Positions 1 to 51,046 of a stretch of DNA of 51,046 bases are shown piece by piece. The notes beneath the pieces were generated by a model. The model saw nothing but the letters and a program-made list of their open reading frames with translations. It did no database searches and was not told the DNA's origin. The position numbers and the translations under genes were made by a program. The stretch lies in assembly GCA_023511995.1 (NCBI GenBank), contig JAIMAL010000019.1:1-51046 (forward strand). The letters are read 5' to 3'. Position 1 is the first letter of the stretch; every line of letters starts with the position of its first letter. This DNA is from Burkholderiales bacterium. Lineage in GTDB: Bacteria > Pseudomonadota > Gammaproteobacteria > Burkholderiales > Thiobacteraceae.

Positions 1-74
1 GATGGGGCAAAATGCTCGCACATTCTGACCCACCTACCCGTTAATCAAAATTGCACTTCAAACTTGAATCCGCG
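1..74 (+). repeat. Left copy of a 74-bp terminal inverted repeat (probable IS end)
   Basis: This segment is a perfect reverse complement of 50971-51044. Identity stops at base 75, just before the rsbR-like gene. The right-hand copy clearly interrupts a gene, so the repeat is most simply the same terminus of an insertion sequence present at both edges. The GACCCACC-type stretch recalls IS21-family ends, but no transposase is in view, so the family is a guess. A length of about 75 bp is also what a k-mer assembler leaves at a repeat boundary. Confidence 0.85.
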
Positions 75-44665: not shown

Positions 44666-46294
<1,629 letters not shown>

Positions 46295-46311
46295 TCCCCT
46301 GATGCCGGCCC

Positions 46312-46341
46312 AACCCTCCCCTCGTGGGAGGGGTTTTTTTT
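46312..46341 (+). terminator. Rho-independent terminator after groEL-1
   Basis: A stem CCCTCCC (46314-46320) with GGGAGGG (46326-46332), loop CTCGT, is followed by a run of eight T at 46334-46341. Confidence 0.9.
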
Positions 46342-46383
46342 GTTCCCGGGAAGGGGGCGAAGGGCAAAAGGCGCGTTTTGCGG

Positions 46384-46412
46384 TTGCACTTTGCGGCCCT
46401 CCCGCCTATCAT
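46384..46412 (+). promoter_or_regulatory. Sigma-70 promoter of groESL-2
   Basis: TTGCAC at 46384-46389 and TATCAT at 46407-46412 are separated by 17 bp. The predicted start falls inside the CIRCE operator, so a bound repressor would block transcription. Confidence 0.75.
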
Positions 46413-46438
46413 TAGCACTCACCAGACTTGAGTGCTAA
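46412..46438. promoter_or_regulatory. CIRCE operator (HrcA site) of groESL-2
   Basis: TTAGCACTC-N9-GAGTGCTAA is a perfect CIRCE inverted repeat at 46412-46420 and 46430-46438. HrcA binds CIRCE and represses chaperonin genes until heat or other stress inactivates it. It lies 95 nt before groES-2. The first chaperonin operon has no such site. Confidence 0.95.
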
Positions 46439-46533
46439 CAATCCTCCCCGGCGGCGTGTTGGGCACTTTACGCAGCTCGCGGCCGCCGGCAACCCTTTTT
46501 TGAAGGAAACAGACTGAAGAAGGAGAACGCAAC

Positions 46534-46824
46534 ATGAAAATCCGACCCCTGCATGACCGCGTCATCGTCAAGCGTGTGGAGGAAGAGCGTCGCACCGCCT
46601 CCGGTATCGTCATTCCCGACACCGCGGCGGAGAAGCCGGATCAGGGCGAAGTCATCGCCGTCGGCCCCGGCCGGCGGGACGATTCTGGCAAGCTGATCCC
46701 CATGGACGTGAAGGTGGGTGACCGGGTGTTGTTCGGCAAATATGCCGGCCAGACCGTCAAGGTGGAAGGCGAGGAACTGCTCGTGATGCGCGAAGAAGAC
46801 ATCATGGGTGTGATCGAGAAGTAA
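46534..46824 (+). CDS. groES: Co-chaperonin GroES, copy 2
   Basis: The 96-residue GroES has the standard length and motifs ([24 protein letters not shown], the mobile loop, [28 protein letters not shown]). It differs from copy 1 at many positions and lacks its C-terminal extension. It has a strong AAGGAG site and is regulated by CIRCE. groEL-2 follows 74 nt downstream. Confidence 0.97.
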
Positions 46825-46898
46825 TGGAGACGTTTCTGCCACGGTGGACGCATGCTGTTGCGTGCGCGCGGTGGTGAATGGACTTTCAGGAGAGATAA

Positions 46899-48536
<1,638 letters not shown>

Positions 48537-48735: not shown

Positions 48736-51000
48736 ATGTCCGAAAGCGCTTTTTCCTTTTCCCGCTCCGCGCGCACCCTGATTGCGGGGTTTGCCGTGGT
48801 CTGTCTGCTGCTTGCCGTGGTGGGGGCCACGGCGCTGTGGCAGATGCGCGAAACCAACGCGCGGCTTGCCCGCATCGTCGAGGAGGCCAACGCCAAAATC
48901 ACCCATGTCAACGCCATGCAGTCCGCCTCCCGGGAGCGGGCGCTTGCGGTCCAGTCCATGTTGCTTTCCACGGACCCCTTCGAGCGGGACGCGCTGATGT
49001 TGCGCTTCCGGGAGTATGGCGCCGAATTCGTCCGCCACCGCGATGCCCTGAGGGCCCTGCCCTTGACCGAGGTGGAGCGGCAGGCGCTGGAGGCGGCCCG
49101 GCAGAAAATCCGCACCTCCACGGCCCTCATGGAGGAGGTGGTGCAGCTTCTGGAGGAAAACCGCGACTTCGAGGCGGATCGTCTCCTGCTTGAGCAGGCG
49201 TTGCCCGCGCAGCAGGCGGTCTATGGCCATTTCCGTGAACTCCTCGCGCTGCAGGAGGAAGCCAGCGCGCAGGCGGCAGCGGAGGCGCGGCGCAGTTATC
49301 AGTTTGCCTTCGGCCTGGTCATGTTGCTGGGTCTTTCCGCCTTGGGCCTGGCGGTGATCGTCTCCGTGCGTGTGGTGCGCCGCACCCTTGCTGCCGAGCG
49401 TGCCCTGGCCCAAGAACGGGATCGCGCGGAAATCACCCTGCATTCCATCGGCGATGCGGTGATCAGTACCGATGCCGCCGGCCGCATCCTCCACCTCAAC
49501 CCCATGGCGGAACGGCTGACCGGCTGGTCATTGGCCGAGGCGAAGGGGCGGGAGGTGGATGAAATCTACCGCGTCGTGGATGAACGGGACCGCCGGCCTC
49601 TTAAGCGCGCCATCCAGGCGGCGTTGGGTAATGATCCCACGACCGTCACGCCCACCATGCCGCTCCTCATCAGCCGCAAGGGCGCGGAATACGCCATCGA
49701 GCAGACGGTCTCCCCCATCCGCGCCGGGGACGGGCGCATCCTGGGCGCGGTAGTGGTCTTCCGCGACGTCACCACGGAACGCACCCTCGCCCAGGAGCTG
49801 GCCTGGCAGGCGAGCCACGATGCCTTGACCGGTCTCGTCAACCGGCACGAATTCGAACGGCGCCTTTCCGTTTTGGCCGAGCGGGCGCGCAGTGGCAAGG
49901 AACATCACGTGCTGCTCTATCTCGATCTCGACCAGTTCAAGCTGGTCAACGACGTCTGCGGCCACATCGCCGGTGACGAGCTTTTGCGCCAGTTGGCGGC
50001 GGTGCTGAGACAGAAGCTGCGGGCGGAAGACACCCTGGCCCGCCTCGGGGGTGACGAGTTCGGAGTGCTCCTGCCCGGCCGCAGCAGCGTAGAGGGGGTG
50101 GCGGTGGCGGAACATCTGCGGCAGGAAATCGCCGAGTTCCGCTTCGTCTGGGAAGACAAGACCTTCACCGTGGGCGCTTCCGTCGGCGTGGTGGAGCTGG
50201 GCCCCCACTGCGGGGGGCTCGCTTCGGTGCTGGCTGCTGCCGACACCGCCTGTTACATGGCGAAGGAACGGGGACGCAACCGGGTCTTCGTCCACCGGGC
50301 GGCCGATGCCGATGTGCGCCGGCGTCATGGGGAAATCGAATGGGTGGACCGTTTGACCCGCGCCTTCGAGGAGGGACGTTTCCGCCTTTATTTCCAGGAA
50401 ATTCATCCCCTGCCCCTGGGTCAGCCGTGCCGCCGGCGGGAAATCCTGCTGCGCATGGTGGATGGCGATGGGCAGCTGGTGCCCCCCATGGCCTTCATCC
50501 CTGCCGCGGAACGCTACAACCTCATGCCCACCCTGGACCGCTGGGTGGTGCGCACTACCTTCGAGTGGCTGGCACGCAACCGCGATGGCCTGTGCCCCGA
50601 TGCCCTGCTTTCCATCAATCTGTCCGGCCAGTCCCTCGGGGATGAGGCCTTCGGCGATTTCGTTCTCGATGAAATCCGCAAGCGGGGGATCGACGCCCGC
50701 CACATCTGCTTCGAAATCACAGAGACGGTGGCCATCGCCAACCTCTCCCGCGCGCTGCGTCTGATGAACACCTTGCGCGCCGCCGGCTGCCGTTTCTCCC
50801 TCGACGATTTCGGCAGCGGCATGTCCTCCTTCGCTTACCTCAAGACCCTGCCCGTGGATTCCATCAAGATCGACGGTGGCTTCGTGCGCGACATGCTCAC
50901 CGATGCGGTGGATTTCGCCATGGTGGAGGCGATCACGCGGATCGGCCATGTGATGGGGCTTGCCACCATTCGCGGATTCAAGTTTGAAGTGCAATTTTGA
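48736..51000 (+). pseudogene. GGDEF-EAL c-di-GMP enzyme truncated by the right-hand IS end
   Basis: The open frame encodes 754 residues: a membrane helix (about 14-35), a helical periplasmic region, a second membrane helix (about 190-215), PAS (about 235-350), GGDEF (438-442, intact, with an RxxD inhibitory site at 429-432) and a partial EAL domain. The EAL motif is EIL at 569-571, and NLSGQSL, EITET and DDFGSG (690-695) are present. At codon 746 the sequence becomes the inverted repeat. Residues 746-754 are IS-encoded and the last 40 to 50 EAL residues, including the final catalytic Glu region, are lost. Cyclase activity may survive while phosphodiesterase should not. ATG 48736 is the best start. 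Confidence 0.85.
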
Positions 51001-51044
51001 TTAACGGGTAGGTGGGTCAGAATGTGCGAGCATTTTGCCCCATC
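50971..51044 (-). repeat. Right copy of the 74-bp terminal inverted repeat (probable IS end)
   Basis: This is the perfect reverse complement of 1-74. It begins inside the EAL domain of the GGDEF-EAL gene, giving a clear insertion scar. The last two bases of the window (51045-51046) extend the repeat beyond what the left end shows. Confidence 0.85.
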
Positions 51045-51046
51045 AA

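Follow-up and report, generated by a model that had tools for sequence, protein, structure and literature searches.

Probable loss of an RbdA-like phosphodiesterase through insertion of an IS30-like element in a Burkholderiales bacterium

A truncated RbdA-like gene at a contig end

Insertion of an IS after codon 745 of a c-di-GMP gene in a Burkholderiales bacterium has, judging by the sequence, in all probability resulted in the simple loss of an RbdA-like phosphodiesterase. The window, by which we mean the whole stretch of DNA analysed, is one entire contig (C19) of 51046 bases, from a genome of 2.51 Mb in 44 contigs. On its forward strand, the reading frame from 48736 comprises the 5' 745 codons of the gene (48736..50970), which Pfam matches and an orthologue in a congeneric genome (G001) mark as an RbdA-like gene of the 4HB_MCP-PAS-GGDEF-EAL type, followed by nine codons encoded by the IS and fused to the frame (RGFKFEVQF, with the stop TGA 50971..51000), the stop codon itself occupying 50998-51000. 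A re-reading of the frame found the coordinates, the limit of 745 codons, the nine IS residues and the stop given in the preliminary description all to be correct. That description had also held that an IS insertion cuts the EAL domain; the insertion is real, although the contig ends inside the IS and one side of it alone is visible.

Pfam profiles place a four-helix-bundle sensory module (4HB_MCP_1, E 2.6e-17) at residues 15-188 (48778..49299), a PAS domain (E 6.2e-15) at residues 235-345 (49438..49770), a complete GGDEF domain (profile 1-161 of 161; 49810..50283) and a truncated EAL domain (profile 2-207 of 236; 50347..50970), all on the forward strand. This order of sensor region, PAS, GGDEF and EAL is that of RbdA-like phosphodiesterases, with the EAL domain incomplete, and the closest PDB homologue by both sequence and fold is RbdA (PA0861) of Pseudomonas aeruginosa (5XGB/8PPS). 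The sequence hallmarks of a diguanylate cyclase are all present on the same strand: the full GGDEF domain, the GGDEF motif (residues 438-442; 50047..50061, identified from the sequence) and, five residues before it, the RxxD inhibitory site (RAED, R429-D432; 50020..50031, identified from sequence and alignment). Motif and feedback site had been described as intact, and both are. Among relatives, RxxD is kept in 28 of 29 at the level of the order and in 63 of 78 further proteins, 70 of these 78 matching the GGDEF pattern used.

Just upstream of the truncated gene, at 44666-48536 of the window, lies a groES-like gene flanked by two complete groEL-like genes (gene names that we assume rather than establish), and the DNA matching both groEL-like copies is found in the same order in G001.

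What the cut removes from the EAL domain

Alignment shows that the EAL ligands before the cut are all present (E569, N628, E660, D690, D691 and K711), their counterparts in RbdA being Glu585, Asn646, Glu678, Asp708, Asp709 and a conserved lysine, to which, together with K711, we presume a functional role. Lost with the cut are the equivalents of RbdA Glu765, Phe766 and Glu768, as well as the QG motif. Consequently, the truncated gene lacks the complete set of EAL residues for metal and substrate, which the G001 orthologue possesses (with Tyr in place of Phe766). In RbdA, Glu765, Phe766 and Glu768 move so as to bind metal and substrate, according to the available text of PMC11372557.

The missing motifs are strongly conserved among relatives: every one of the 29 that share the order has AE followed by QG 20 residues on, as do 77 of 78 found in named genomes, two partial loci having been set aside from 80. 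In a structural model of an intact relative (L152), a helix and a short strand are predicted beyond the position of the cut, with the active-site Glu located two residues past it. Model and alignment thereby uphold the preliminary claim that the region of the last catalytic Glu and the final strand and helix are removed. The model of the window protein (built from an alignment of the window protein with 47 of the 78 loci) gives its last six residues a mean confidence of 48, while the block means across its GGDEF part lie at 89-97 over model residues 1-130.

The EAL motif itself reads EIL, and it had been hinted that this weakens the domain. The hint did not survive comparison, for relatives carry EIL more often than any other form (32 of 75, against 26 of 75 for EVL and 11 of 75 for ELL, taking from each protein the first match to a simple motif pattern, which was found in 75 of 78), and an inactivating effect of EIL is thus ruled out. 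With the residues beyond codon 745 gone, the EAL domain is very likely to be catalytically dead.

The IS30-like element and its copies

The gene sequence is followed by the first 76 bases of an IS30-like element (50971..51046, forward strand; hereafter end A), inside which the contig stops. The same end recurs, with the same bases but on the reverse strand, at the contig's other end (1..74). Considering both ends of 42 of the 44 contigs (84 ends), 19 carry end A (the one at the truncated gene and 18 others) and 18 carry an end B, so that 37 of 84 ends belong to this element. Each of the two groups is identical across its shared 73 bases, and A reads as an imperfect inverted form of B. Since the same bases recur at so many contig ends, the tail of the contig is an IS end rather than a chance sequence. 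The identity of the visible ends also points to a recent multiplication of the element, to about 19 copies.

The bases flanking these ends suggest how the element inserts. At a length of 3 bp, the flanks form 14 A-B pairs, whereas 5000 random draws from these flanks average 4.8 and never exceed 12, and at lengths of 2, 4 and 5 there are 6, 0 and 1 pairs; five A and four B ends in the genome are left without a partner. A complete relative of the element in another genome of the same order measures 1058 bp from A to B, with an end A 91% identical to that of the window, and 3-bp repeats border each side of this copy and of a second, internally shorter copy from another genome (read by eye). Together with the 14 paired ends, the repeats around these related copies lead us to predict a 3-bp target repeat ATT at 50968..50970 (forward strand), a single copy of which is visible. 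The recurrence of the IS end across contig ends, combined with the 3-bp target repeats, also argues that the left junction of the insertion, between gene and element, is real. The element shows two inverted ends and short target repeats, as IS30-family members do. In the transposase of the complete relative, which represents the inner part of the element as found in the other genome's copy, HTH_38 scores above its cut-off and rve reaches 26.5 bits against a cut-off of 32.6; we tentatively take this pair of domains to indicate the IS30 family.

Three further observations concern mobile DNA in this genome. The inverse end A at the left of the window (1-74) lies 8 bases before a frame encoding a STAS domain (83-949), and it may displace the promoter of that gene. 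At the right end of C34 (L150:11322-11435), one end B is inserted 39 bp inside the end B of another copy, in the same orientation. Finally, the ends of C15 (right), C17 (right), C18 (both), C30 (left), C31 (right) and C40 (right) share AACCCAGATTTGTCATTAGG, and probably belong to a second multi-copy element.

The missing far side of the locus

In the congener G001, the orthologue is uninterrupted: it encodes 789 aa, is 76% identical and runs 44 residues past the cut (AEYVEN...QGYG...). A CBS-DUF294 gene follows 9 bp behind its stop codon. The counterpart of this gene in the present genome (81% identity) is located on contig C37 (C37:6142-8037), an indication that the locus was formerly unbroken.

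Searches for the intervening piece returned nothing that could be assigned to it. The stretch of about 145 bp before the CBS-DUF294 gene (G001 L151 6845-6990) has no good match in the 42 contigs read, paralogues aside. A tblastn scan with the last 130 residues of the orthologue, run against either end of 40 contigs and the left end of one more, gave nothing better than E 0.22. Queried genome-wide, 74 C-terminal residues yielded 18 matches at E up to 10, all of them this gene, paralogues or weak matches, and a 176-bp DNA query from the orthologue yielded 40 matches at E up to 10, the best a paralogue (E 1e-7), and not the missing piece. An uninterrupted copy of the gene, named at the outset as the finding that would overturn the insertion, was sought in 42 of the 44 contigs and not found, nor was the second junction (B side) of the insertion found in these 42. 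The left end of C37, the only B end flanked by ATT, was considered as the partner of the window's end and ruled out, as it belongs to C41: when C37 and C41 are aligned to one and the same G001 contig, their flanks stop at positions 178685 and 178645, 39 bp apart. The only B end flanked by TTC is disputed between C1 and C19.

C37 itself offers a probable reason for these absences. A stretch of 1.4 kb (C37:8038-9466, in L146), containing an acetyltransferase gene, a gene for ribosomal protein L28 and the first part of a YloV/DAK2 gene, starts within about 60 bp of the CBS-DUF294 start codon, at the place expected for the lost piece. Given this second and different L28, together with the YloV fragment, the stretch is probably a misjoined foreign contig end, a reading taken from sequence comparison. 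The genome's own L28 lies on C17; its matches to PDB entries 8crx and 8rd8 score 31 and 119 bits, while 8crx is the best PDB match of the C37 L28, at 84 bits. We take 8crx and the next matches of the C37 L28 to be mostly actinobacterial. GC content was uninformative as proof of foreign origin (68.2% in the stretch, 65.9% in the rest of C37 and 65.1% in the window). The misjoin is probably why the far junction is missing from the contigs read, and it would explain why there is one B end too few (18 versus 19). Annotators should therefore be aware that a probable misjoined foreign end adjoins the missing part of this gene in the assembly.

Is the insertion real, and is it simple?

Because one junction is visible in the contigs read, the assembly itself has to be weighed as a source of the pattern, as does rearrangement beyond the IS, which may have occurred. 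An artefact, with the junction absent from the cell, might be suspected given that the contig ends inside the IS and that C37, which carries the next gene, has a foreign end and so a probable misjoin close to the site. However, the join begins at the exact first base of the IS end, as at 18 other contig ends, 14 of the other ends obey the 3-bp repeat rule, and the 42 contigs read returned no uninterrupted copy. Moreover, the foreign stretch lies past the missing piece, and accounts for the absent second junction while leaving the first unaffected. We consider an artefact highly improbable. An IS-mediated deletion or inversion, by which the 3' end of the EAL domain would be gone from the genome and not just separated, draws on the unmatched 145 bp or so and on the lack of a clear repeat partner for either end of the window (the ATT B end going to C41 or C37, and the TTC B end contested between C1 and C19); with four B and five A ends unpartnered, rearrangements between copies are likely somewhere in the genome. 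Nevertheless, a shortfall of one B end fits the loss of a single short piece, the foreign stretch of C37 begins where that piece should be, about 60 bp from the start of the next gene, and two of the 44 contigs, outside the search, could hold it. Deletion or inversion is accordingly an unlikely account of the locus.

Phosphodiesterase loss or cyclase gain

Simple loss of function would come about as follows. A multi-copy IS30-like element inserted after codon 745 of the RbdA-like gene, and the sequence shows that the protein now breaks off where further active-site residues of the EAL barrel would follow, and carries nine IS residues instead. With its EAL domain dead, the gene would no longer supply a phosphodiesterase. 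What remains may be a GGDEF domain that still binds GTP or works as a weak cyclase, or else an unstable protein, and the CBS-DUF294 gene behind the truncated gene may suffer a polar effect. The net outcome would most likely be a plain loss of phosphodiesterase in one strain.

The main functional alternative, already put forward in the preliminary description, in which the truncated protein acts as a stand-alone diguanylate cyclase with product inhibition intact and raises local or global c-di-GMP, is rather unlikely. It is encouraged by the complete GGDEF domain with its GGDEF motif and RxxD site, by the degree of constraint that conservation of RxxD among relatives implies, by the confidence with which the GGDEF part is modelled, and by a natural variant of E. 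coli YciR that keeps GGDEF in the absence of EAL (reported in the accessible part of PMC5635171). Against it stands RbdA, for which the available sections of PMC11372557 report that phosphodiesterase is the measured activity and is lower when linked to the cyclase domain, that stimulation by GTP needs an intact GGDEF domain, and that the GGDEF domain alone is mainly monomeric, whereas dimers are formed by the EAL domain and by the GGDEF-EAL tandem. If the analogy holds, a loss of phosphodiesterase is likelier than a gain of cyclase, because the GGDEF domain of RbdA regulates a phosphodiesterase and is mainly monomeric by itself; loss of part of the active site may also weaken cyclase dimerisation. 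In addition, a barrel deprived of its last part may be unstable. Genome-wide domain matches, including those of the truncated gene, number 21 for EAL (one gene counted twice) and 25 for GGDEF; the 20 other EAL and 24 other GGDEF matches make any global change in c-di-GMP unpredictable, and the latter also weigh against this alternative. A bolder version, in which the insertion turned a dispersal phosphodiesterase into a neomorphic, feedback-inhibited membrane cyclase that was favoured by locking cells into surface growth, with a frame break on C4 expressing the same trend, appears very unlikely.

The break in question affects another GGDEF-EAL gene (C4:24360-25066, in L260), whose EAL-coding part passes from one frame into another immediately ahead of the KID motif; it is a frameshift or a sequencing error. 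Elsewhere, at C10:74732-74893 (L262), a tail resembling an EAL C-terminus (AEGIE...QGFH) ends a frame of 233 aa, where an EAL profile search detected nothing further of the domain.

As IS damage to one of many c-di-GMP genes, the plain phosphodiesterase loss that we favour is of an ordinary kind and carries little weight as an individual case. Its value lies in the clean natural test that it provides of whether an RbdA-like protein can do without the last part of its EAL barrel, and in the parallel test of whether an RbdA-like GGDEF domain can work alone.

Comparison with known systems

The truncated gene resembles RbdA in its order of PAS, GGDEF and EAL and in its metal ligands, which are identical up to the cut. 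RbdA is also a membrane protein with an all-helical periplasmic region, according to the consulted part of PMC11372557, and we count this as a further likeness. The EAL domain of RbdA, however, is complete and includes Glu765, Phe766, Glu768 and QG, all of which are lost here.

The element is akin to the IS30 family in the transposase of its complete relative, with HTH_38 and a putative rve domain, its length of ~1.06 kb, its imperfect inverted ends and its short target repeats, as well as in the insertion of one end B in another on C34. It differs in the length of its target repeats, which are 3 bp for this element and 2 bp for E. coli IS30, as given in the available text of PMC9333248.

Truncations of EAL proteins in E. 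coli offer the nearest parallels to the damage itself. The accessible portion of PMC5635171 describes PdeU3 without EGVE and QG, a YciR variant reduced to sensor and GGDEF by a stop codon that removes EAL, and a frameshift in YjcC. These cases share with ours the loss of the same two motifs, or the loss of EAL with GGDEF kept; they differ in that this portion of the paper attributes none of them to an IS insertion, and for PdeU3 it gives no cause at all.
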